The notes beneath the pieces are model-generated. The model saw only the letters and a program-made list of their open reading frames with translations, was not told the origin of the DNA and ran no database searches. Both the position numbers and the translations under genes were made by a program. A stretch of DNA of 35,514 bases. It comes from a virus. The stretch spans positions 1-35,514 of IMG/VR virus record IMGVR_UViG_3300022920_000019; one strand, written 5' to 3'. Shown here piece by piece: positions 7,344 through 30,910 of the stretch (the stretch's first letter is position 1; each line of letters starts with the position of its first letter).

Positions 7344-8948
7344 TCACCATGAGTAGGCAACTCGGTCGAGATCATCCGTAGCAGGACTCGGAGAATCGAC
7401 ATTGACACTACTGGAACTGTTATTGGTGGTCGAGGGTGCACTAATGTTCTGAACTGCCACTTGTGTTGCGGTTGCGTTTGCTTTACTGCTTTCAAGTTCT
7501 TCTCTACCACCAGAGAGGTTTTCCAACATAGAACCAAATCCACCTGACTTTTCCATAGATATAGGAACCTGTAATTCTGGTGGTTCGTTCATTCGTAACT
7601 CAGGTTGAGCAGTGTTGTTTAACTCCGACTTCGCATCCTGTAACTCTTTCTTTGCAACCACTTCCATCTTGGGCATCTCTGGAATCTCACTCTCTGCCGT
7701 TCCAGTCGTTTTTGCCTTTTCCAATCTCTTTGCTTCTTGCTTTGCTAATGTCTCTTCTTTGAACCTTTGGGCATTATTAGTATCCATCAATTCCGCATTC
7801 TCAAGATTCTTGACAAAATCTGGTACTTCAATACCCAATGCCGTTAGTAGTTTACCACCCAAACCTGCTATCTTCTTTGCTATTTTAATAAAGAAGTTGG
7901 CAACATGGGCAAGTCCATCTTTCATAAATTGCAAACCTAACAACATCACATCAAAGATACTGTCAAAACCTAATGCATTTTTTACCTTGTTCAGTAAAAA
8001 CGCAATACCTGCAATTGCGACACCGACCCCAAGAATGATCGGCAAGAATGGTGCAAGTGCAACTGCCATTGTTGTGACTATTCCCATTAGTGCGGGGACT
8101 AATGTTGACATAGTGAACACAGACACTGCTAAGAATCCTGCTCGTAGAAACTTAATTGCCGTACCGAGTTTTGCTAGTACCCCCTTTCCCATTGCACTCA
8201 AGTTCGTGGCAGCGGTTAATGTTCCGACTTGAACCGCAATGAAACCGATTCGCATTAATCTAATAGCATTTAGTATTTTAGTGAAGATTCTAAATCCGAC
8301 AATCGCACCCGCAATCATTACCATGCCATTAAATATCTCTTTGAAGTTATCACTAATGAACGGAAAGACCGTATCCTTAAAGAAGGTAAAGAGACCAGAA
8401 GTAGCAGGGATGATTTTATCTTTGACAAATGCTTTGATGGTATCGAAGTTTTCTATCATAAGTTGAAAGACTTTGATACCAACAATACCAAGAGCAAGTT
8501 TCGCAAGTTTACTGATAAATGATGGGGTCTTACCGACTTCTTTGTCCAGACCTTTGTCCTTTACTTTCTTCTGAACCCTGTCTTTCATGGATGCTTCTCT
8601 TTCTTTCTCTAGAGAGTCAAGACTACTTTGCTCTGACTGTCGTTTAGCATCCAGTCTTTCTGCTTGTGCATCACTCAGTGTCGCAAGTGCAACTTGTGCC
8701 TGTGACGCAACAACATCCCCTATTGACCTTAATTCAATTTCTCGTGCGGCATCGAAGTCACCCTTATCCTTCGCAATCTTAACAAGTTCCATATTGGAAT
8801 TATGATTTTCAACTGTCAGTTTGGCCTGCTCTTTCTGAAGGTCAGATTGCTTACGCATTTCATCAGTTGCTGTCTGTAGAAGTGCGATATTTTCTTTCGC
8901 AAGTGCTTTCTCGTCTTCTATATCTTTTCTTGTTTTTTGGTCTGCCAT
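7344..8948 (-). CDS. Tail tape measure-like / hub protein (gp29 position)
   Basis: 534 aa. The N-terminal third is a highly charged coiled coil (about 1-170). The middle (about 145-380) holds a series of hydrophobic helices with Gly/Ala-rich segments such as LAKLALGIVGIKVFQLMIEN and IILGVGVAIAGIAFLLNKV, and the C-terminus is low-complexity, Asn/Ser-rich. This is the usual make-up of a tape measure protein, which sets tail length and is ejected with the DNA; T4 gp29 has 590 aa. Its place directly after gp26 and a small chaperone-like ORF agrees with the usual chaperone-chaperone-tape measure order. The start at 8948 (1 nt after the upstream stop) is chosen over a longer frame from 9014 that would overlap that ORF. 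The only ribosome-site candidate is GAGAAA. Confidence 0.7.
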   Translation of the reverse strand: MADQKTRKDIEDEKALAKENIALLQTATDEMRKQSDLQKEQAKLTVENHNSNMELVKIAKDKGDFDAAREIELRSIGDVVASQAQVALATLSDAQAERLDAKRQSEQSSLDSLEKEREASMKDRVQKKVKDKGLDKEVGKTPSFISKLAKLALGIVGIKVFQLMIENFDTIKAFVKDKIIPATSGLFTFFKDTVFPFISDNFKEIFNGMVMIAGAIVGFRIFTKILNAIRLMRIGFIAVQVGTLTAATNLSAMGKGVLAKLGTAIKFLRAGFLAVSVFTMSTLVPALMGIVTTMAVALAPFLPIILGVGVAIAGIAFLLNKVKNALGFDSIFDVMLLGLQFMKDGLAHVANFFIKIAKKIAGLGGKLLTALGIEVPDFVKNLENAELMDTNNAQRFKEETLAKQEAKRLEKAKTTGTAESEIPEMPKMEVVAKKELQDAKSELNNTAQPELRMNEPPELQVPISMEKSGGFGSMLENLSGGREELESSKANATATQVAVQNISAPSTTNNSSSSVNVDSPSPATDDLDRVAYSW

Positions 8949-8949
8949 C

Positions 8950-9093
8950 TTAATTTCTCGTTTTGCGTTCTTGTTCTTCGTGTCTTTGTTTTTCCTCCTC
9001 CAACCATTGTTCAAGAAGGGTTACATAAATTTGCCTCTCCCAAGGCATCATGTTCTCAAGTTCAGTCAACGAATAACTATAATTGTGCATCAT
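8950..9093 (-). CDS. Small helical ORF, likely C-terminal part of a gp26 frameshift fusion (tail assembly chaperone)
   Basis: From the first ATG (9093) the ORF is 47 aa: it includes SYSLTELENMMPWERQIYV followed by TLLEQWLEEEKQRHEEQERK. The same frame is open without stop back to 9170, overlapping the end of gp26; the additional residues (LNLSHDSLENHYKTNFF) look like part of the same domain. A U-UUU-UUU slippery heptamer lies in the overlap, so the ORF is probably expressed mainly as a -1 fusion to gp26 of about 301 aa. There is no good ribosome site before the ATGs. Position before the tape measure gene matches the gpT part of gpG/gpGT-type chaperones. Confidence 0.65.
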   Translation of the reverse strand: MMHNYSYSLTELENMMPWERQIYVTLLEQWLEEEKQRHEEQERKTRN

Positions 9094-9102
9094 AAAGAAA
9101 TT

Positions 9103-9153
9103 AGTCTTGTAATGATTCTCAAGACTATCATGGGAGAGGTTTAGGAAAAAAAA
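9103..9153 (-). promoter_or_regulatory. Candidate -1 programmed frameshift signal at the end of gp26
   Basis: Eight consecutive T on the minus strand (9146-9153) place T-TTT-TTT in the gp26 frame at codons 235-236, two codons before its TAA. Slipping back one base enters the open frame of the downstream ORF. A perfect 7-bp stem, AGTCTTG / CAAGACT with a 10-nt loop (9126-9103), begins 19 nt after the run, farther than the usual 5-9 nt, so its role is uncertain. Confidence 0.6.
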
Positions 9154-9854
9154 TCCTGTAAACCCGTCAACTCATGTTTGTTTTCTTTACCACACTTCTC
9201 ACAGTTCCATTCCACATCTAAAGACAACTTCGGGATATCGTTAAGGAACTCTCCGACCTTTTCAAACTGCTGTCTGGTCATAGAATCAATAAAATCTTTT
9301 ACTTCTTTTACTGGTAAGTCTTTGAGGATAATTCTTTCTTCCTCGGTCAGTACTGCTTCTATAGACCTTGCCAACATAGTGAAACCAAACTCTACGGATT
9401 CATCCCCTTCTTTGAAGTTAGTAATAACATCACCATACGCAGGGTATTTCATCTCAACCGAAATACTATCGGTCAATTCGATGAGGGAATCAGTTTTCTT
9501 CATATCAACTTCTGCTTCTGTCATATTGATATTAACATCTGATCTATGTCCACACTCAGCATCACCACAGGAGATAGTAATATCTGCTGTCTCACCAACA
9601 GATCGACCACGAATCTGTGTGAAAATATACTCAACATCAAATGTAGTCAATTCTTTGACTTTTATGTTTTCTTCAACACAAGCACTGATGGTCTTTGCCA
9701 TCACTTCCATCATCTGTTTCTGATCACCAGTTTCATTGGCAATCATCATTTGCTTCTCTTCTTTGACCAAGTAAGGTCGGTATGTCACTTCAACACCAGT
9801 TGACGGAATTGTCAACCTATAAGTATTAGTCACATTTAACTTAGGTAATGCCAT
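9141..9854 (-). CDS. 26: Baseplate hub / tail assembly chaperone gp26
   Basis: 237 aa (T4 gp26 has 208). Begins MALPKLNVTNTYRLTIPSTG then TYRPYLVKEEKQMMIA, the pattern of gp26 in T4-like marine phages. Two cysteine pairs, C96-x4-C101 (SCGDAECGH) and C218-x2-C221 (NCEKCGK), can form a split zinc ribbon. The ATG at 9854 has a perfect GGAG 6 nt upstream; the longer reading begins at a TTG. T4 gp26 is needed for hub assembly. Its place before the tape measure gene, and the slippery run at its last codons, suggest a role like gpG of lambda-type tails: a short form plus a -1 extended form binding the tape measure. Confidence 0.8.
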   Translation of the reverse strand: MALPKLNVTNTYRLTIPSTGVEVTYRPYLVKEEKQMMIANETGDQKQMMEVMAKTISACVEENIKVKELTTFDVEYIFTQIRGRSVGETADITISCGDAECGHRSDVNINMTEAEVDMKKTDSLIELTDSISVEMKYPAYGDVITNFKEGDESVEFGFTMLARSIEAVLTEEERIILKDLPVKEVKDFIDSMTRQQFEKVGEFLNDIPKLSLDVEWNCEKCGKENKHELTGLQDFFS

Positions 9855-13619: not shown

Positions 13620-14984
13620 GTGAGTAACAAAACCACACAGTCTCAACAGTTCAAGATCACCAAAGCAACGATCACGGCAGATCGGTTCGGTGGTATTGAT
13701 GGTAGCAAAATAGATGTTAGACCATCTATCGCAGAACTGAATATCTTTGAGAGTTTGGACAAACCGTATCTTACTGGTACAATTGTTATCCTTGATGACA
13801 AGGCAATGTTTGATAGTATATCATTTCAAGGAACCGAGAGAATATCAATCGACATGGCATCGGTTGACAATGATTTGAATACAGTGATGTCTCGCACATT
13901 CATTATGACAGGAATCGAAACACAAGTCAAGTCAAATGATAACGGAAAGTCTAGTATGTATTCGTTCACACTATTAGACGAACATGCGTTCTTATCGTCA
14001 CTCAAGAAGATCAGTAAGTCTTTTAATGGTCGTATTGATGAGGTAATGATCAAGTTACTCGCAACCGAAATGAAACTGGATATTGATACCTCATATTTGA
14101 GTCTGTCTAATGGTACAGAATCACTACCAACACAAACAAATATTAGAGGCATCATTCCAAATCTATCACCCATAGATGCTATCAAGTGGTTAACCAGTAG
14201 AGCAACAACAGTAACTGGTTCACCTTTCTTTGTGTATGCGTCAATGCATGATAAAAATCTGCGTTTGGGTAATCTAGATTCCATGTTATCACAAAAAGCA
14301 TTTAATTCAAAACTGCCATACACTTATAACCCTGCCAATATATCGAATGCTGAAGGACAAACCGAATTTGAAAGAACTTTCACAATCAAGGCACTCAAGG
14401 GTTCGAAATCAGCAAACACACTGAAGTTGATACAGCAAGGTGCGGTGAGTGCTTCTATGGAAAACACCAACCTAAATACTGGTTTGATATCTAAGTCTCA
14501 TTTTAGTGTAAGGAATGTCCTAGATAAATTGAAAAATAGTAATATTATCGGGGATAATCAAAATGTCTTTGATCCAGAGTTTAGACTCGGAGAGGTCTTG
14601 GTTGATGAATACGACTCCCATAAGTTTCATACGGTGTCATCGACAGGAACATATGGTCGAAAGAAAAGTTATCACGATGAGTATGACAAAAACCAGTTTA
14701 ATAAGAAACTAGCAAACCGTTCTATACTCAATCATATGTACAAGAATATGTTAAATGTAGTTGTAGAGGGTGCGGGGTTTATTGTCGCAAAGGCAGGTGT
14801 TGGTGATATTGTCAACCTACAAGTTGTGAACGATAATGTGGAAAGTTCTGATACTGCGAATGAAGATGACCTGATTGATAAGGCAAAGTCAGGTAATTTC
14901 ATCATCTATGATACAAGACACACATTTCAAGGGACACAACATACTGTTTCTATGAATCTTTGTAAACTGGAGAAACTTCCGTAA
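13620..14984 (+). CDS. 27: Baseplate hub protein, gp27-like
   Basis: 454 aa (T4 gp27 is 391). It begins with strands and turns (FKITKATITADRFGGIDGSK; PYLTGTIVILDD), has a helix-rich middle (PSIAELNIFE; LSPIDAIKWLTSRA) and a C-terminal beta part (AGVGDIVNLQVVND; FIIYDTRHTFQGTQHTVSMN). This fits the gp27 / gpD hub fold that forms the trimer carrying gp5. It lies directly before the gp5-like gene. The start is a GTG, 2 nt after the gp53 stop, with poor ribosome complementarity; no in-frame ATG is close. Its TAA overlaps the next ATG. Confidence 0.7.
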   Translation: MSNKTTQSQQFKITKATITADRFGGIDGSKIDVRPSIAELNIFESLDKPYLTGTIVILDDKAMFDSISFQGTERISIDMASVDNDLNTVMSRTFIMTGIETQVKSNDNGKSSMYSFTLLDEHAFLSSLKKISKSFNGRIDEVMIKLLATEMKLDIDTSYLSLSNGTESLPTQTNIRGIIPNLSPIDAIKWLTSRATTVTGSPFFVYASMHDKNLRLGNLDSMLSQKAFNSKLPYTYNPANISNAEGQTEFERTFTIKALKGSKSANTLKLIQQGAVSASMENTNLNTGLISKSHFSVRNVLDKLKNSNIIGDNQNVFDPEFRLGEVLVDEYDSHKFHTVSSTGTYGRKKSYHDEYDKNQFNKKLANRSILNHMYKNMLNVVVEGAGFIVAKAGVGDIVNLQVVNDNVESSDTANEDDLIDKAKSGNFIIYDTRHTFQGTQHTVSMNLCKLEKLP

Positions 14985-15844
14985 TGCCCACACCAATTCT
15001 ATCTGAGTTCTATGGTGACAACACACGATGGTTTATTGCAACTGTCGTAGATGCGTCTCCCCCATATGGTTTCGAGGGTCGTGTGAAGATTCGTGTTCAT
15101 GGATTACACACAGAATCTACTCGACTGATTCCTCAAGCAGACTTACCTTGGGCACAATGCGTAGTTCCTACTACCGAGGGTGGTGCATCTGGTATAGGAA
15201 GAATGCCACAATTACAACCAAGTGCATTGGTATTTGGTATGTTTATGGATGGGGTCAACTCACAGACACCTATTGTATTGGGTTCTCTACCTCATGTGGA
15301 ATTTCCCACACCCGTACAACTAGGTCAGACTGACGAAGACATTGTGGCAGATAACAAACCAGAAGGACTCTGGAATAAGATCACTGATGCTTTTAAACCA
15401 AAAGAAACTGATATTCAGAACGAAGAAGCAGGAAATATTTCTACTACAGTAAAAATTGCACGACAGAATACGGCAGTAAAGTTCTTCTTGAATGTAGGAT
15501 ATACCGAGAAACAAGCAATCGGACTGACCGCAGGATTATCTATCGCATCTGGTATGCGTACTGGAATCAACCCTCAAGCAAAGGGTCTGGGGGCATTCAG
15601 TGATAGACGATTTGCTGATCTTAAAAAGTTCTCCAATCAAAGTGATAATTTCCTCACACAACTAGCATTTGTTGCCTACGAGTTGAATGGTACTCAGTCT
15701 TCTGCCAACATACGATTGTTACAATCTGACAGACTCGACAATAAGGGTATCTGTCACATAGTAGGTAAATATTATTTGGTCAATGCTCCTAGTGTGAAAC
15801 AAATAGAATTGGAAGCAAGACGATTGACGGATAGGATAGTATAA
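14984..15844 (+). CDS. 5: gp5-like hub protein: OB fold plus tail-lysozyme-like domain
   Basis: 286 aa. Residues about 15-45 (RWFIATVVDASPPYGFEGRV, KIRVHGLH) and the segments up to VLGSLPHVEF form the gp5/VgrG OB fold that binds the gp27 ring. Residues about 155-280 resemble the phage tail lysozyme family (PF18013 as I recall): FFLNVGYTEKQAIGLTAGLS, GINPQAKGLGAFSDRRFADL, FLTQLAFVAYELNG. In that family the motif after GYT..QA.GL usually reads ESG; here it is IASG (A188), so the presumed catalytic Glu is missing. The protein ends without the beta-helix of T4 gp5, which is on a separate gene at 17843. Coupled to both neighbours by TAATG overlaps. Confidence 0.75.
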   Translation: MPTPILSEFYGDNTRWFIATVVDASPPYGFEGRVKIRVHGLHTESTRLIPQADLPWAQCVVPTTEGGASGIGRMPQLQPSALVFGMFMDGVNSQTPIVLGSLPHVEFPTPVQLGQTDEDIVADNKPEGLWNKITDAFKPKETDIQNEEAGNISTTVKIARQNTAVKFFLNVGYTEKQAIGLTAGLSIASGMRTGINPQAKGLGAFSDRRFADLKKFSNQSDNFLTQLAFVAYELNGTQSSANIRLLQSDRLDNKGICHIVGKYYLVNAPSVKQIELEARRLTDRIV

Positions 15845-17853
15845 TGGCATTAAGAAAACAAGATTTAAATCACATCCTAACTGGTGAAGCAATACAGAAT
15901 AGTGATGAGAAAAACAATTTTCAACAGAAAACACTTGCGTCTATTGACGAGACCTATGCTAAGAGAACAACTCTTGTTGGACAAATAGATGGTCAGATTC
16001 TTGGTGGTATAAAAGCACTTGGAGCATCTACCAATTCGAGTGAAGAAGTTATAACCAGTGCGGTTGGTGCGATTACTGATGCGTTTCCTACAACGGGTGC
16101 TGTGGGTAACCTTATTGTTGCCACCAAAGATACCGTAGTAGACTCTAATGGTGAGTTCCTACGATTCAAATCAGATTTAGATTCGGCAGGGGGTCTTGTT
16201 CTCAATACATTAGGTATAGACTCTGATGGTAGTGGTAATCTATCCGTGTTACGAGGTGCGGGTCGTGATTCCGCAGACGAGGCACGAGGGTTTGGTACTT
16301 TAGAAACTACTGTAACCGCACTGACAGGACTTCCCGCAATCAAGGTAAGTAATCCCACTTCTGCCCTCGCAGTTATCACTGATGGTACTGCCGAAAGTAT
16401 TGCCCAATGTGTTGCGATTGCAGATGATAAAAAAGCAGAAGCATATGCGTCATTGATCGAATTCACCACTGCTGTAGATGCGGCAAAACCCAAATCAGTG
16501 GGGGGTGGAGGAATCATGGGATTCATAGCAACGGTCACGAGTGCTATCAGTGTGGCAGGTAATTTAGCAAACACTCTTGGTGCCATATCACCTGTTGCCG
16601 CAATAAATGACGCAATCCAAACGGCACAGGATGCCGTCAACAACACAACCTTTGTTAAAGAATTAAATGCTACAGTTCAAGGAATAAAAGATAGTCTTCC
16701 TACTCTAGCAGATGTTGAGGCAGTGATTGGAACTGATCTGAAAGACATAAAAAGTGCTATCAATGAAGCAACTGATGCGATAGATACTTTTAATGCTGAG
16801 TTTGATGCTCGTGTTGAGAGTGGACTTCCCGGTGTGTTACAGGATGTGGCAGAAAACCTTTCGGGGACTGCTAGTGAATTTATTGCTAATCTTGTTCCCG
16901 GTGGTATTGTTTCGTCTGATGCGGAAAGACAACAAATCCTTTCACAGTTTACTAGTGGTGATCCTAGACAGAAGAAGGAAGCAGTCAAGACACTGGTAAG
17001 AAAATCAGACAATGTGACGGGTAGAATGAAAGAAATCATTGCCTCGGACGAAGGGACATCTAGTTCATTAGAGATGCAAATTCAGATGATCGAAAAGGCA
17101 AAGGCACAAGGTGTTCCCGAACAAGAGATTGCGAGAGCACAACAAGAAATCTCCACCATTGATGATAAAATGTCTAAACTGGACACTACTATCTCTGGTA
17201 CTGTTGTTATTGATGCAAGTCTGTACGAGGAAGGTCAACCCGTCAGTACCGACAAATGGGATGGTCGCAATAGTCCAGACGATACCTTTACCTATGTTTC
17301 ATCGGTAGAAGAACTAGACGCAGAGTTTACTAGGGTAGAACGAGATGTGACCGAGGTTGTTGTTCACGCATCCGAGACTCACACCAATAAAGACATCGGT
17401 TCTATAGAGATAAATAACATACAGATTGATCTTGGACATGACGGTATTGGATACCATTATGTTATACGAAGAGATGGTAGATTACAACGAGGCAGACCAG
17501 TGAACATACAGGGTGACCACGCACCAGTAAATGGTCACGACAAATTTTCTATTGGTATTGTGATGGTTGGTGGTATTAATGTTGCTACGGGTGAAGACAA
17601 CCCAACGGACTACCTTTCTTCTCAGTCATTTACAAGAGAACAGTTTACGACATTAGAGAAGTTTTTGAATGGATACTATCGAAGATTTCCCGGTGGTCAA
17701 GTATTTGGTCACAACGATATTGATGTCAATGAACTTGATCCATATTTTGATGTGGTAGATTATGTAGAGTCTGTGTTCAGAAAACAGAACAGAACAGACG
17801 ATCCATTGAATGCTTCACCATTGAGTCCATCGGAGATGAATAGTGACAACTAA
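15844..17853 (+). CDS. Tail-associated hub protein with C-terminal N-acetylmuramoyl-L-alanine amidase domain
   Basis: 669 aa. The first 450 residues are Ala/Ser/Thr-rich and helical with long amphipathic stretches. The last ~170 form an Amidase_2/PGRP domain: EVVVHASETHTN (H508), GIGYHYVIRRDGRLQRGRP (Y537, H538), GDHAP...GHDKFSIGIVMVGG, then VFGHNDIDVNELDPYFD. By comparison with AmpD and T7 lysozyme, H508, H623 and D632 would bind zinc. The enzyme would cut the bond between muramic acid and L-Ala in peptidoglycan, locally, during infection. Placed between the OB-fold hub gene and the needle gene, it likely supplies the wall-cutting activity that gp5 lysozyme gives T4. The start overlaps the previous stop. 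Confidence 0.85.
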   Translation: MALRKQDLNHILTGEAIQNSDEKNNFQQKTLASIDETYAKRTTLVGQIDGQILGGIKALGASTNSSEEVITSAVGAITDAFPTTGAVGNLIVATKDTVVDSNGEFLRFKSDLDSAGGLVLNTLGIDSDGSGNLSVLRGAGRDSADEARGFGTLETTVTALTGLPAIKVSNPTSALAVITDGTAESIAQCVAIADDKKAEAYASLIEFTTAVDAAKPKSVGGGGIMGFIATVTSAISVAGNLANTLGAISPVAAINDAIQTAQDAVNNTTFVKELNATVQGIKDSLPTLADVEAVIGTDLKDIKSAINEATDAIDTFNAEFDARVESGLPGVLQDVAENLSGTASEFIANLVPGGIVSSDAERQQILSQFTSGDPRQKKEAVKTLVRKSDNVTGRMKEIIASDEGTSSSLEMQIQMIEKAKAQGVPEQEIARAQQEISTIDDKMSKLDTTISGTVVIDASLYEEGQPVSTDKWDGRNSPDDTFTYVSSVEELDAEFTRVERDVTEVVVHASETHTNKDIGSIEINNIQIDLGHDGIGYHYVIRRDGRLQRGRPVNIQGDHAPVNGHDKFSIGIVMVGGINVATGEDNPTDYLSSQSFTREQFTTLEKFLNGYYRRFPGGQVFGHNDIDVNELDPYFDVVDYVESVFRKQNRTDDPLNASPLSPSEMNSDN

Positions 17854-19354
17854 AAAAGACAATTTTAATACAAGAGTTGAGCAACTCGGTGAGGGACTAG
17901 AGAATACTTTGGGTGTTGCCCAAGATGGTATGCAAGACCCTACAGGTGAATATCCCAAACGAGACTATAACTTTGGGACATCTATCAATAAGGCATCTCG
18001 TGGTTCCAAGGTAAACAACCTCTATGTTGGGGGTGGTGACATTGGTGTATCCTTGGGAATACAACCACAGAGACCATCCGAGTATCCGTTTAACCAAGTA
18101 CAAGAGACTATCTCTGGTCATGTGATTGAACAGGATGACACTCCCGGTGGAGAACGAGTACTAATCAAACATCGCACAGGTGCGGGTGTTGAGATGAGAG
18201 CAGATGGTTCTGTTATTATCTCTGCTGTAAACAACAAGGTAGAAGTGACTGGTGGTGACCAGACTGTTATCATTGAGGGTAATGGTAATCTCGTGTATCA
18301 GGGTAACTTGAACATGAAGGTGACTGGTGACTATAATGTTGATGTTGGTGGTAACTATAATCTTAATGTGGCAGGTAGTCTACGAGAGAACATCCTAGAG
18401 AATCACCGAACGATCACCACAGGCAATCGTGAAGAGACTGTCAAGAAGAGTAAGATCAACCGAACAATGAGTACACTCACCGACATATGTCTGGGTGAAC
18501 ATAACATCGATGTCAAGTTGGATCAGAAGACTGCGGTTGAGGGTAACATAGAAATTGCGGGTGGAGCATCCGTCTTTGTGTCGGGTGAAGAATCCTTTGC
18601 GGTATCTGCCGATGTTGCCAATGTGACTGGTGCCAAGTATGTCTCCGTCTTAGGACAGAGAGGTGCGATTGGTGGTAAGTTGGTTGACTTCACAGGTAAT
18701 GTATTCCAAGGTGGTGAGGGTGCGGTTCCATTTAATTCTGGTGCGGTGTTCTATGGTTCGTTCTATGGTAAGGCACTTGAAGCAATCAAGTCGAACCATG
18801 CTGATAAGGCAGACCTCTCACTCAGATCATACTATGCTGAAAACTCTAAACACGCATTGACTGCGGTCACTGCGGGTACTGCCGCAACTGGTGCGTCATC
18901 ATTCTCACCACCTAAGATTCTCACAGCAGGTATTCATATACCTATGCTTGCATTAGAAGAGATGGCACTACCAAGTGGTCACGCAGAACCACCTCAAGCA
19001 CACATCACCCCCGACTGGGTAGTTGGTCAAGTTGCTAATGGTGACTTTGCGATTAGGACTGTTGTGATTGATGGAGGGGATGTGTTGTTGACCAAGACAT
19101 TACTTACGGATGACTATGAGGATGTGTTCAATCATGTTCCATCAACCCAAGAGATTCGTTCTGCGTTTAGAAACGAAGCATCCAGAAATGCAATCGGAGG
19201 AATACTTGTTTCCGAAGAAAGACTTAATACAAAATACAAAGTAAAGGCACCACCGAAGATCGGTAGAACAGTGAAGAAATCCCCATCATCTAGATTCGGA
19301 TTTGAACCTATTGGTAATGCAGTTGAGAATAGAGGAAAGAGGTTTACACCATGA
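17843..19354 (+). CDS. Central spike / needle protein with gp5-type beta-helix
   Basis: 503 aa. Residues about 85-240 consist of short repeated strands of the V-x-G-D/N type, such as VEVTGGDQTVIIEGNGN, KVTGDYNVDVGGNYNLNVAG and ENHRTITTGNREETVKKS, the signature of the triple-stranded beta-helix of gp5/VgrG spikes. C-terminal of this are further Gly/Ala-rich parts (AGGASVFVSGEESFAVSADV) and a basic end. It would form the membrane-piercing needle beneath the hub. The GTG start at 17843 has GGAG at 17832-17835 seven nt upstream and lies 2 codons after an in-frame TGA; it overlaps the amidase gene by 11 nt. Confidence 0.8.
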   Translation: MTTKKDNFNTRVEQLGEGLENTLGVAQDGMQDPTGEYPKRDYNFGTSINKASRGSKVNNLYVGGGDIGVSLGIQPQRPSEYPFNQVQETISGHVIEQDDTPGGERVLIKHRTGAGVEMRADGSVIISAVNNKVEVTGGDQTVIIEGNGNLVYQGNLNMKVTGDYNVDVGGNYNLNVAGSLRENILENHRTITTGNREETVKKSKINRTMSTLTDICLGEHNIDVKLDQKTAVEGNIEIAGGASVFVSGEESFAVSADVANVTGAKYVSVLGQRGAIGGKLVDFTGNVFQGGEGAVPFNSGAVFYGSFYGKALEAIKSNHADKADLSLRSYYAENSKHALTAVTAGTAATGASSFSPPKILTAGIHIPMLALEEMALPSGHAEPPQAHITPDWVVGQVANGDFAIRTVVIDGGDVLLTKTLLTDDYEDVFNHVPSTQEIRSAFRNEASRNAIGGILVSEERLNTKYKVKAPPKIGRTVKKSPSSRFGFEPIGNAVENRGKRFTP

Positions 19355-25702: not shown

Positions 25703-28700
25703 ATGCCAAAAACATTTACATCCAATGTATTCTCCTCCTCTTACAAGGATGATTTTGTAGACAGTGATAACTATCACAGAATCCTCTTTAATAGTGGTCG
25801 TGCTCTACAAGCAAGGGAACTTACCCAATTACAAACTATTATCCAAGAGGAAATAGGAAGATTTGGTAGAAACATTTTCAAGGAAGGTGGTGCTGTCAAT
25901 CCCGGTGGGCCAACTATACACAACGATACTGAGTTTGTCAAGTTAAATGTTGCGGGTGAACTCGATGGACTTCCTGCTGATTCAACTGAAATAGTAGGAA
26001 CAGTCTTCATTGGTAACCAGTCTTTGGTTCAAGCAAGAGTACTGGAAGTTATTCCTGCCGAGGGTGCTGACCCTGCTACATTGTTTGTTCAGTATATAAA
26101 CACTCAAAATGCTACCGCAGATGTAAATGGTATTCGTTTCTTCCCAGATGAAACGATGAGTAACGGTTCTAAGCAGTTAAGAGTTGCAGCGACTGTTGGT
26201 ACTGACCTCCCTGTCGGTCGTGGTTGTAAATTCTCTAGTTCCGAAGGTGACTTCTTTACTCGTGGACATTTCGTATTTGCAACTGCTCAGTCAATTATCC
26301 TTTCCAAATATAGTAGATTCCCAACTGCGACTGTTGGTTTTAAAGTAACAGAAGATATCGTAACATCATCGGATGATACTGCGTTATTTGATAACCAAGG
26401 ATCAACTCCAAACCTTGCCAGTCCCGGTGCGGATCGTTATCGTATTAAACTTACTCTCGTCAACAAAGCAGATGTTGCTAATGATGAAAACTTTGTGTAC
26501 TTTGCCGATGTTCTGGATGGTAATATCGTTGATGCCGTAGAGGGCACCGATGATTATAATAAGATTGCCGATGAACTTGCTACAAGAACTAAAGAAGAGT
26601 CTGGTGACTATATTGTCGATCCATTTACAATAGACTTTTCCGATCAAAGTGACTCAGGTTCCGCAAATAATATCACTGCGACTGTATCAAATGGTGTTGC
26701 GTATGTGAATGGTTACCGTGGTGATGTGAATACTCCCGTACCACTAATACTTCCCAAATCTCGTGCAACCGAGACAGTTAATAATCAATTTACTGGTATT
26801 TCCTATGGGCAGTACTTTATTGTTGCAGGAGCAACTTTCAAGGGATTACTTGACACTCGAACCTATGCTACAATAAACCTATCTTCACACGCAACCGATC
26901 CATCTGGTAGTGCGATTGGTACTGCACGAGTTCGTTATGTCGAAGAAGATGGTTCAAACTACCGAGTTTACCTGTTCGACATTAATATGAACTCAGGACA
27001 GAATATAAGAAGCATCCGATCTATTGGTACCAACGCAACCAATCGTGGTATTCCTGTTCTTGAGGGTAGTCAGGCAGTACTGAAAGAAGTTCGCAAAACT
27101 AACATGGTCTTTGGATTACCTAATCCTCGACCCAAAGTACTTACAGATATTTCTTACGAGGTTCAACGAATCTTAACTGGTACTGCCAGTGGAACTCAAC
27201 TACAGTTTACCTTGACAACTTTTGGAGAAGCATTCTCTAACGAATCGCAGTGGATTGTTTGTGATGCGGATGGTGATGTTATATCTCCAACTATCACATT
27301 GTCTAGTGGCAACGAAACCGCAACCATTACAGGATTGGCAAACGAAGCACACACTGTTTATGCCAAAGTAAGTAAAGGTAACCCAACAGTTCGTCTGAAA
27401 AACCTTACTGATGCGACCGTAACAACCACAGTGACCACTGGTTCTGATGGTGTTAGATTTGTCAATCTGGGTGTCACAGACATCTATAAGGTTTCGGCAG
27501 TAAAACTAGGAAGTTCTAGTGGTGCTGACATTTCTCACCTATTCACCTTAGACGATGGTCAACGAGCAGGATTCTATGGTCTGGGTCGTATGGTACTTGA
27601 GACTGGTGCAACGGCACCGACTGGAAATGTCTATGTGTCATTCAAACACTTTGTTCATGGTACAGGTGACTTCTTCTCTGTGACCTCTTATAATGGTCAG
27701 GTTAATTACGAGGACATTCCTAATTTCAAAACTGGAGTGAGAACTAGTGTAAACCTAAGAGATGTTATTGATTTCCGTAATGGTGTGAATTCTAGTAATG
27801 CCTTTGTTGCTACCTCTGCAACCGAACTTCCCACTAATGGTGATACGGTTCAAGCAGATGTTGAATACTATCTACCTCGTACAGATAAGATTGTCGTGAC
27901 CACTCAAGGTGAAGTTAAGAAAATTCTAGGTGAAGCAGGATTTACTTCTCAGATTCCCGAAACTCCGATTGACACGATGGCACTATTCACCATTGAGCAC
28001 AATGCCTATGGTCTGAATGACTCGGATGTGGTTCTTACTCCATTCAAAGCAAAACGATTCACGATGAAAGACATTTCCAAACTGGAAGATCGAATCGACA
28101 AGGTTGAAGAAGCAACCTCACTAAGTTTGCTTGAAGTTGATACTGCTAATCTGATGGTATTGGATGAGAATGGTAATCTAAGAACTAAGTCTGGTTTCTT
28201 TGTAGATAACTTTGCAAACAGAACATTCTGTGATGCAGATAACATTGAATATCGTGCCGCAATTGATCCATCACGAGGACTGTTATCAGTACCTACACTA
28301 GAAGATGATGTGATTCTTGCATACGATTCTTCCAAGTCAACTAACACTATTTTGAAAGGTGATACTGTTTACTTGAAGTATACAGAATCTCCCACTATCA
28401 CACAACCACTTGTATCTGGTACAGAGAATGTAAACCCATTCGCAGTTATCACTGGTGAAGGTAACATTACTATGTCACCCGCAACCGACAACTGGTTCCA
28501 AACCAAGTATACTCCTGCCAATATCATCAACAAAACGGCAGTAGATAATACCGAAGTCAATCTGGGTAACATTAGTAGTGGTTTCCAAGAGATGACTGTG
28601 TCACAGAAACGAGAATTCCTTTGGGGTGGTGGCAACACATATGTTCCCATCACTGGTTTTGGAAGCACCCAATCAAATGTTGGTAGTGGTTGGAGAGGAA

Positions 28701-30910
28701 CTCCCGCATGGAACTGGAGAGGTGTCGTTCAAGAAGGTTCTAGAACTGTTAATGTTGGTAATGACAACGGTGGTCGTAACAACCAAGACTTCAATGTCAT
28801 TGGTTCTTTCTCACAACGAGTTGTTACTGGCACAAAGACTATTCGTAAGGTAGTTGGTGAAAGAACTGTGTCATTGACCTTCCTACCATTCATTCGTTCA
28901 CGAAAAGTATTCTTCCGTGCCGAGGGTCTACGACCTAGTACTAGGTTCTTCGCATTCTTTGATAATAAGAGTGTTGATCAATTCTGCCGTAATGAAGATT
29001 CGTTCAAACGATACGGTGACATTGCTACAGACGCACAATATGCTAATAGCATGAGAAAGTCAACTTCTCACCCCGAAGGTTCAGCAAACCTTATCAGTGA
29101 CGGAGCTGGTAAGATCGAGGGTTCTTTCTTCATTCCTTCTAATGAGACAACTCGTTTCCGAGCAGGAACTCGTGAGTTTAAATTACTTGACATTAGTAAG
29201 AATGACGATGATGCGGCACTTTCAAGTGCGACATTCAATTATACCGCACAGGGTACTCTGGATACTAAACAGAAGACTATTACTTCTACTCGTATCACTC
29301 AGGTCAGAACTCGTAGGTGGACTCAAACTCTAAAAGTTAAAGTAAAAGACCCATTGGCACAATCATTCTTTGTGACTAATCCTAATGGTATCTTTGTAAC
29401 TAAGGTTCAGACTTATTTTAGTACCAAGGATTCTACTATTCCGGTTCAGTTACAGATTCGACCAATGGTTAATGGTCACCCAAGTTCGACTGAGATTCAC
29501 GGACAATCTGTTGTGTTCAATGCTCCAAACCAAGTCCATCCTCCTGCTTCACAGACACAAGCAGCGGTAGAGGCATCACCGACTACTTTCGAGTTTGAAG
29601 AACCCATCTTCTTGAATCCCGAAACAGAGTATGCGATTGTACTTCTTGCTGAATCTACTAACTACAATGCCTATGTCGCAGAGACCTATGCGTTTGAGTT
29701 GGGTTCTACCGAGAAGAGAATCTCTCGTCAACCATCTATGGGATCACTGTTTAAGTCTCAGAATGGTACGACTTGGGAACCAGATCAGACAAAAGACCTT
29801 GCGTTCAAAATCTTCACTGCTAACTTTGAGGCATCTGGTACTGCGGTATTTGAGAACCGTGATGTCGATAAAGAACTACTGGACAACAACCCCATATACA
29901 TGAGTGCAGATGTGGGAGCAGACAGTGATGCAGTAGTAATGCTTGTTCCTAATCATGGATTTTCGATTGGTGATACAGTAAAGGTTGAAGGACTGGATAG
30001 TGCTACAACTTATAATGGTGTAAAAGGTACATCTATCCTTGGTGCGAGAACGATCACAAATGCAGATGGATTTGGTATTCAGTTTAATGCCGACTCTTCT
30101 GCGACATCGTCTGGTAGATTTGGTGGTGAGAACATCCTGATTGATAAACAACTTCAATTCGATATTTGTTCACCAAACTTTACTACAATGGTTCCAGATG
30201 ATACTACACTGGTTTATAGCAGTAAGTTTATCACTGGTAAATCATTCGCAGGACTTGAAACCAAGTATCAGAGAGAGGACAACTACAGTAGTGATATTAC
30301 TATCGGAGACGAGAATTATTTCTCTGCTCCACGATTGATCGCAAACCCATCAAACGAGTTGAGTAACCTCGGTGCCAACGAGAGGTCAGTATCAATTAAA
30401 GTTGATATGGCAACATCTCGACCATCGGTAAGTCCTATAATTGACACACAGGGTGCGTCTTTGACAACTGAGTCGAATCAGATTGATAACCAGAATAACA
30501 CTGCGGCAACTGGATTCAATGTTCCATTGACATACTCTGCGGAGACCAATGCGTTTGGTGGTTCTTCACTTGCTAAACATATGTCTGTTGTTGCAAGTTT
30601 GGATGAACCTGCTACTGGTATGAAAGTTATCCTTGCGGCACTAAGACCCGCAGGTAGTGAACTGGAATTATATTTCAGAACTGGTAACGATGGTGAAGAC
30701 ATTCTTGGTAAAAACTGGACACTGATTGCACCAGAATCAACTCAGGCACCAGATGCGATAAACTTCCGAGAGTATCGTTATCTGATTGGTGGTGACAGTG
30801 GAACACTAGATGAATTCACCGAATATCAATTTAAGTTGGTATTCAAGGGGATTAACACATCGCAAGTTCCGTTCATACGAGACTTCCGAGCAATTGCAAT
30901 GGCAACCTAA
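25703..30910 (+). CDS. Very large baseplate / fibre-anchor protein (DUF4815-like)
   Basis: 1735 aa. The N-terminal region, with SYKDDFVDSDNYHRILFNSG, RALQARELTQLQTIIQEEIG and FKEGGAVNPGGPTI, resembles DUF4815 of marine T4-like phages. Further on are long beta-rich parts, a basic-aromatic stretch (GSGWRGTPAWNWRGVVQEGS), and a later segment LKVKVKDPLAQSFFVTNPNG, IFVTKVQTYFSTKDS that is conserved in such proteins. The C-terminus (FTEYQFKLVFKGINTSQVPF, IRDFRAIAMAT) is a beta-sandwich-like end. By position after gp8 it takes the place of T4 gp9/gp10/gp11, probably forming the outer wedge and the attachment point for fibres. Enzymatic motifs were not seen. Confidence 0.75.
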   Translation: MPKTFTSNVFSSSYKDDFVDSDNYHRILFNSGRALQARELTQLQTIIQEEIGRFGRNIFKEGGAVNPGGPTIHNDTEFVKLNVAGELDGLPADSTEIVGTVFIGNQSLVQARVLEVIPAEGADPATLFVQYINTQNATADVNGIRFFPDETMSNGSKQLRVAATVGTDLPVGRGCKFSSSEGDFFTRGHFVFATAQSIILSKYSRFPTATVGFKVTEDIVTSSDDTALFDNQGSTPNLASPGADRYRIKLTLVNKADVANDENFVYFADVLDGNIVDAVEGTDDYNKIADELATRTKEESGDYIVDPFTIDFSDQSDSGSANNITATVSNGVAYVNGYRGDVNTPVPLILPKSRATETVNNQFTGISYGQYFIVAGATFKGLLDTRTYATINLSSHATDPSGSAIGTARVRYVEEDGSNYRVYLFDINMNSGQNIRSIRSIGTNATNRGIPVLEGSQAVLKEVRKTNMVFGLPNPRPKVLTDISYEVQRILTGTASGTQLQFTLTTFGEAFSNESQWIVCDADGDVISPTITLSSGNETATITGLANEAHTVYAKVSKGNPTVRLKNLTDATVTTTVTTGSDGVRFVNLGVTDIYKVSAVKLGSSSGADISHLFTLDDGQRAGFYGLGRMVLETGATAPTGNVYVSFKHFVHGTGDFFSVTSYNGQVNYEDIPNFKTGVRTSVNLRDVIDFRNGVNSSNAFVATSATELPTNGDTVQADVEYYLPRTDKIVVTTQGEVKKILGEAGFTSQIPETPIDTMALFTIEHNAYGLNDSDVVLTPFKAKRFTMKDISKLEDRIDKVEEATSLSLLEVDTANLMVLDENGNLRTKSGFFVDNFANRTFCDADNIEYRAAIDPSRGLLSVPTLEDDVILAYDSSKSTNTILKGDTVYLKYTESPTITQPLVSGTENVNPFAVITGEGNITMSPATDNWFQTKYTPANIINKTAVDNTEVNLGNISSGFQEMTVSQKREFLWGGGNTYVPITGFGSTQSNVGSGWRGTPAWNWRGVVQEGSRTVNVGNDNGGRNNQDFNVIGSFSQRVVTGTKTIRKVVGERTVSLTFLPFIRSRKVFFRAEGLRPSTRFFAFFDNKSVDQFCRNEDSFKRYGDIATDAQYANSMRKSTSHPEGSANLISDGAGKIEGSFFIPSNETTRFRAGTREFKLLDISKNDDDAALSSATFNYTAQGTLDTKQKTITSTRITQVRTRRWTQTLKVKVKDPLAQSFFVTNPNGIFVTKVQTYFSTKDSTIPVQLQIRPMVNGHPSSTEIHGQSVVFNAPNQVHPPASQTQAAVEASPTTFEFEEPIFLNPETEYAIVLLAESTNYNAYVAETYAFELGSTEKRISRQPSMGSLFKSQNGTTWEPDQTKDLAFKIFTANFEASGTAVFENRDVDKELLDNNPIYMSADVGADSDAVVMLVPNHGFSIGDTVKVEGLDSATTYNGVKGTSILGARTITNADGFGIQFNADSSATSSGRFGGENILIDKQLQFDICSPNFTTMVPDDTTLVYSSKFITGKSFAGLETKYQREDNYSSDITIGDENYFSAPRLIANPSNELSNLGANERSVSIKVDMATSRPSVSPIIDTQGASLTTESNQIDNQNNTAATGFNVPLTYSAETNAFGGSSLAKHMSVVASLDEPATGMKVILAALRPAGSELELYFRTGNDGEDILGKNWTLIAPESTQAPDAINFREYRYLIGGDSGTLDEFTEYQFKLVFKGINTSQVPFIRDFRAIAMAT

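Follow-up and report, generated by a model that had tools for sequence, protein, structure and literature searches.

The stretch of DNA analyzed here, called the window throughout, is the IMG/VR virus record IMGVR_UViG_3300022920_000019 from a marine T4-like phage (35,514 nucleotides, nt), and the subject is the junction between gene 26 and an overlapping reading frame that encodes a gp51-type domain. The junction comprises the following features:

9141-9854, minus strand: gene 26, encoding the short product of 237 amino acids (aa) from its ATG (families PF12322 and phrog_150), with the stop codon TAA at 9143-9141.
9147-9153, minus strand: slippery heptamer T_TTT_TTT, in register, within a run of eight Ts at 9146-9153.
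8950-9153, minus strand: -1 frame extension with the gp51-type domain, 67 codons long when measured from the T run, with its first start codon at 9093.
8950-9854, minus strand: predicted long product gp26-gp51 of 301 aa, with a layout equivalent to that of T4 gp51.

On the minus strand the 3' end of gene 26 reads GGT TTA CAG GAT TTT TTT TCC TAA, with a single sense codon between the two Phe codons of the T run and the stop codon. The -1 frame opens after a TGA at 9174-9172 and stays open until a stop codon whose last base is 8950. From the T run, this open reading frame (ORF) encodes FFFLNLSHDSLENHYKTNFFMMHNYSYSLTELENMMPWERQIYVTLLEQWLEEEKQRHEEQERKTRN. Its earliest ATG is residue 21, and no ATG, GTG or TTG lies ahead of the ATG ATG at 9093-9088. 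An earlier reading made from the sequence alone had recognized the heptamer near the end of gp26, the frame open to 8950 and the lengths of about 65 residues for the extension and ~301 aa for the fusion, all of which hold; its position for the opening TGA, about 9171-9173, was slightly off.

Profile searches assigned the window gp26 to PF12322 over nearly its full length (E=3.2e-58, 197 bits, curated cut-off 24.5) and to phrog_150 (E=9.8e-63), with the latter match ending at profile position 232. The -1 extension turned out to belong to the gp51 family, annotated as 'baseplate hub assembly catalyst' (phrog_634, E=2.2e-25). This match begins at extension residue 2, i.e. at the T run and not at the first ATG, and the profile matched the -1 extension in 35 of 35 members. 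The extension also matched positions 231-278 of the 282 in phrog_150 and thereby takes over, at the C-terminal end of the profile, where the gp26 match leaves off. It matches 554 phage records. Annotations of cultured phages either call it a short gp51, started at the nearest ATG, or omit it. The domain had been called hidden by the sequence-only reading, and it indeed has no start codon before its ATG, but it is already present in databases, as the gp51 family.

T4 gp26 and gp51 both match PF12322 (E=8.8e-64 and 3.9e-52, respectively). T4 gp51 (249 aa) gave an uninterrupted match to phrog_150 positions 13-280 and matched phrog_634, whereas the match of T4 gp26 (208 aa) ends at phrog_150 position 235, where the frameshift site would be. 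The predicted fusion is therefore collinear with T4 gp51, and the short product with T4 gp26. As a separate observation, the window gp26 carries Cys-rich motifs, CGDAECGH (C95 region) and CEKCGK near the C-terminus, which suggest a metal site; CxxC motifs are present also in T4 gp26 and gp51, and many cyanophage gp26 proteins are without them.

The conservation of the junction was analyzed with two scans of viral contigs, using search patterns from inside gp26 or inside gp51. The junction and the heptamer were not part of the patterns. An alignment of distant gp26 proteins was unusable for scanning, because no stretch was conserved enough. Together with a first scan and isolates, 174 loci with both parts were obtained, representing 160 distinct junctions, which are related and not independent trials (142 remained below 85% identity). 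All 160 distinct junctions place gp51 in the -1 frame with respect to gp26, well beyond what chance would give, and thus the PF12322 part and the gp51 tail are in different frames, unlike in the full-length single-gene gp51 of T4. The six Ts of the heptamer T_TTT_TTN were invariant (160/160), while its seventh base was free (73 T, 67 C, 18 A, 2 G), as expected for an X_XXY_YYZ site. The gp26 stop codon lies 7-10 nt past the first T of the heptamer in 156 junctions. Exactly six Ts were found in 87 junctions, and some members, the window among them, have runs of eight or nine. A relative that kept the ORF without a slippery run would have contradicted the sequence-only reading; none was found among the 160 contig or isolate junctions, and distant lineages also have the T run. 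The T run with gp51 in the -1 frame is found in KVP40, Ah1, Aeh1, Aeromonas 65, Cronobacter S13, pf16, Cr30, Rhizobium Y68, and S-CRM01; in VmeM32, a further lineage with a T run, a run of seven Ts and the residues directly after it were read. In Aeh1, which has been recorded as lacking gp51 (PMC3037559), gp51 follows TTTTTTC in the -1 frame (locus L189, 1465-1644). Unannotated or partly annotated -1 gp51 frames follow gp26 also in Aeromonas 65 (L190, from 1462) and Cronobacter S13 (L191, from 1417).

Coding of Phe-Phe in both frames would explain part of the invariance of the T run, and therefore a test was restricted to the positions left free by the gp26 frame. Two of the six Ts are such positions, the wobble base of the preceding codon and that of the first Phe codon. 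Both were T in 160/160 junctions, compared with 78% and 75% of comparable codons elsewhere. Up to the T run, the information per codon position tracked the gp26 frame, and directly past the run it switched to the -1 frame. Conservation of the extension upstream of the ATG, which had been proposed as a check together with that of the T run, was seen as well: in 320 moderately close pairs, the ratio of nonsynonymous to synonymous changes (pN/pS) in the -1 frame was 0.11 for codons 4-20, which precede the first ATG of the window, and 0.08 after them. Hence, -1 codons before any ATG are under purifying selection, and the conserved residues must belong to a protein for which translation through gp26 is almost the only route.

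Next to the heptamer, sequence and structure elements of the kind that stimulate frameshifting were found:

9161-9168, minus strand: Shine-Dalgarno (SD)-like stretch GACGGGTT, weak in the window itself (-3.2 kcal/mol) and stronger in most relatives.
9131-9139, minus strand: 5' arm of the long-range stem P1, CCTCTCCCA, starting 7 nt after the heptamer and supported by covariation.
9034-9042, minus strand: 3' arm of P1, TGGGAGAGG, supported by covariation.
9102-9127, minus strand: hairpin P2 of 8 base pairs (bp) inside P1, containing the 7-bp stem AGTCTTG/CAAGACT at 9126-9103.

The best anti-SD pairing between positions -24 and -4 averaged -6.1 kcal/mol, compared with -4.8 kcal/mol for synonymous shuffles (p=1e-11, n=142), and was about -1 kcal/mol at -60, -90, and -120. 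The SD-like site lies about 10 nt upstream of the heptamer, with the best pairing at -17 to -14. This spacing is close to that known for -1 sites such as dnaX.

Downstream regions starting at +9 to +15 were more stable than synonymous shuffles (z -1.1 to -1.75; p about 1e-19 at z -1.7), and the region +60 to +120 showed no excess folding compared with such shuffles (z 0.0). RNAalifold gave no consensus fold for the whole set (energy 0), and therefore all 18,144 possible 9-bp helices were scanned for covariation. The top six were overlapping windows of a single register, the long-range stem P1, which pairs +9 to +22 with +111 to +124 (z up to 7.6). The next-ranked helix was the register of P2 (z 5.5). 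The 7-bp stem of the sequence-only reading was exact in its position and is the second-best supported helix of the scan; the stronger stem that encloses it had been missed. In the window, P1 is formed by CCUCUCCCA/UGGGAGAGG and encloses P2, with a total of -29.9 kcal/mol. In an ungapped alignment of 81 sequences, 120 double-change cells were counted for P1 and P2 together, versus 77.5 +/- 9.7 after shuffling (0/500) and 43-60 for slid registers. On 70 phylogenetically independent pairs, P1 had 22 compensatory changes (slid 4-12) and P2 had 25 (slid 5-14). In P1, covariation is strongest for the column pairs 15-120 and 18-117, which alternate between C-G and U-A and link third codon positions, and constraint on the amino acids is therefore no explanation. 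A trade-off between SD strength and P1 was weak (rho 0.25-0.29, with relatedness uncontrolled) and is not claimed. Rfam contained no family at the site.

A programmed -1 frameshift that joins gp26 to the gp51 domain is, as far as the sequences can tell, very probably the best explanation of the junction, and with 160 of 160 distinct junctions the frameshift to a tail-chaperone domain that the sequence-only reading had proposed is still the best-supported one. Most ribosomes would stop at the TAA and produce gp26, the short chaperone. A fraction would slip back by one base on U_UUU_UUU with tRNA-Phe in the P and A sites, aided by the upstream SD-like sequence and/or the downstream stem with its inner hairpin, and would read about 65 further codons to yield the 301-aa gp26-gp51 fusion. 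By analogy to lambda gpG/gpGT, the short form may form a coat on the tape measure protein, and the long form, made rarely, may recruit tail-tube or hub subunits. In T4, the same pair would come from two genes, gp26 as the short and gp51 as the long form. We infer the slippage itself and its rate, as well as the binding to the tape measure and the equivalence with G/GT.

The -1 frameshifts of lambda gpG/gpGT and other tail assembly chaperones were reportedly described by Xu, Hendrix and Duda in 2004. The window resembles lambda in having a -1 ORF without a start of its own, a candidate tape measure as the next gene, and an N-terminal part that is common to the short and the long product. It differs in the protein families, which are PF12322/phrog_150 and phrog_634, and in having the upstream SD-like site and the long-range stem with the inner hairpin. 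A G/GT-type role is likely. The next gene was located as follows:

7344-8948, minus strand: candidate tape measure of 534 aa, assigned by position only.

In the phage Cr30, the gene annotated as tape measure lies one small ORF further on. In some lineages, one or two small ORFs of unknown function are found between gp51 and the next large gene (loci L011, 1425-1754; L014, 1395-1797; L180, 1689-2099; L182, 1683-1931).

Several results weigh against the proposed role or mechanism. With respect to the role, Pfam searches with the extension gave only chance-level matches and no tail-chaperone family. The next gene, which the sequence-only reading had called tape-measure-like, fits by its position, but it had no family match in the profile searches and no pairwise match to the compared part of the Cr30 'tape measure'. 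gp26 and the extension were folded separately. The AlphaFold2 model of gp26 (predicted local distance difference test, pLDDT, 93.5) had as its best PDB match by probability the HK97 tail assembly chaperone gp13 (2OB9; probabilities 0.92 and 0.84), but this match is weak by E-value (0.13-0.23); at E 0.13 it comprises 77 alignment columns of 236 residues with 10% identity, and gp26 is more than twice as long as HK97 gp13. The extension was predicted to be helical (pLDDT 78), and a fold search with it gave no PDB match. It is therefore conceivable, though doubtful, that the frameshift is real but the long form acts only in the assembly of the baseplate hub and not as a G/GT-type tape measure chaperone. 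The weak chaperone fold match and the purely positional assignment of the tape measure would fit this, and T4 gp51 has been placed in the hub pathway (PMC3004832). However, gp29, the tape measure of T4, also counts among the hub components (PMC3004832), and therefore hub and tape measure roles can be one. Moreover, the gene order and the -1 layout match those of G/GT, and the fold match with the best probability is a tail assembly chaperone.

With respect to the mechanism, P1 is missing in the cyanophages P-RSM6, P-SSM2, and S-RSM4; P-RSM6 and P-SSM2 carry strong SD-like sites. The isolate S-SCSM1 (L185, about 1487-1525) is the one exception to the layout: TTTTTTC is kept, but an insertion of about 11 nt behind it breaks the -1 ORF, and gp51 lies in another frame with an ATG nearby. 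Either the frameshift has truly been lost here or the sequence contains an error; only the two records of that one phage matched the junction at at least 99%. In addition, 43 of the 160 loci have an in-frame ATG somewhere between the start of the -1 ORF and residue 18, and therefore reinitiation is possible there. Some of these ATGs overlap or directly follow the gp26 stop codon (P-SSM2, KVP40), and S-SCSM1 could use only such a start. Nevertheless, it is improbable that gp51 is generally translated on its own as a small protein, by termination-reinitiation or from an internal start close by, with the T run merely coding for Phe-Phe of gp26. No ATG is found up to residue 18 in 117 of the 160 loci, and none of ATG, GTG, and TTG in 61; the early ORF of Aeromonas 65 is without any start. 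An internal start further down would leave out residues that show conservation and purifying selection, no start codon lies at a usable distance after the SD-like site, gp26 alone would not preserve the two wobble Ts, and T4 gp51 runs through the junction as a single uninterrupted protein. Slippage of the RNA polymerase on the T run as the source of the fusion is the least credible alternative, since the 8-9 T runs of some members, including the window, would suit it, but the six Ts of 87/160 junctions are short for it, and the invariant register, the SD-like spacing, and the downstream stem are ribosomal features.

The predicted frameshift apparently extends to most T4-like lineages other than T4's branch, in which the arrangement is different. 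In all five split phages examined (T4, phiAS4, Krischvirus, RB43, and an Acinetobacter phage), gp26 and a full-length gp51 are encoded by two genes, which lie on opposite strands in T4, phiAS4, Krischvirus, and the Acinetobacter phage and are adjacent in RB43. The run of six Ts was absent from all four gp26 ends that were read, those of T4, phiAS4, RB43, and the Acinetobacter phage. The T4 gp26 end keeps GLKEFFELL, with GAG TTC TTT GAG as codons. All phages in which the T run was found to be absent encode gp26 and a full-length gp51 separately. In a tree of 24 proteins, which is unrooted and has long end branches, the two-gene proteins (T4, phiAS4, RB43) were separated from all frameshift-type gp26 proteins by a branch with 91/91 support, and gp51 formed one group (99/98). 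The family of T4 also contains KVP40- and Aeh1-like phages with the frameshift layout, and the simplest history is therefore a single duplication on the branch of T4; this duplication would have replaced the frameshift. A G/GT pair that is encoded by two paralogous genes and needs no frameshift is already known, gp143/gp144 of the Bacillus phage 0305phi8-36 (PMC2147016), which belongs to an unrelated phage group for which no frameshifting relatives are described in that paper.

Two further observations were made elsewhere in the window, both on the plus strand. At 14984-19354, the gp5-type hub/tail lysozyme looks split: its N-terminal part is at 14984-15844 (phrog_430 positions 15-111) and a middle part is at 17843-19354 (phrog_430 positions 332-528), with an ORF containing an amidase domain between them (15844-17853). 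At 25703-30910, a 1735-aa protein of the large phage family phrog_358, which is of unknown function, is encoded amid baseplate and fibre genes.

No report of a gp26/gp51 frameshift was found in the literature, which was searched in openly licensed PMC papers. Sullivan et al. (2010) listed gp51 as missing in Aeh1 (PMC3037559), and the same paper put cyanophage gp51 at about 20% of the full length and noted that cyanophages and vibriophages lack its first ~200 residues (PMC3037559). These ~200 residues correspond to gp26, which explains both the 'truncated' cyanophage gp51 and the 'missing' gp51 of Aeh1. According to a review, G/GT frameshifting is conserved among long-tailed phages 'except T4' (PMC5009743), and our results bear on this supposed exception. 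Taken together, the T4 superfamily is probably no exception: most lineages (Kyanoviridae, KVP40-, Aeh1-, and 65-like phages, and phages of Rhizobium, Caulobacter, and Pseudomonas) would frameshift from gp26 to gp26-gp51 with an SD-like site and a covarying long-range stem, T4's branch would have duplicated the gene, and gp51 would be the long form of a G/GT-type chaperone. Accordingly, hundreds of genomes from very abundant marine phages may carry a misleading gp26/gp51 annotation, and the split and unsplit lineages would offer a natural experiment in which gene duplication replaced recoding.
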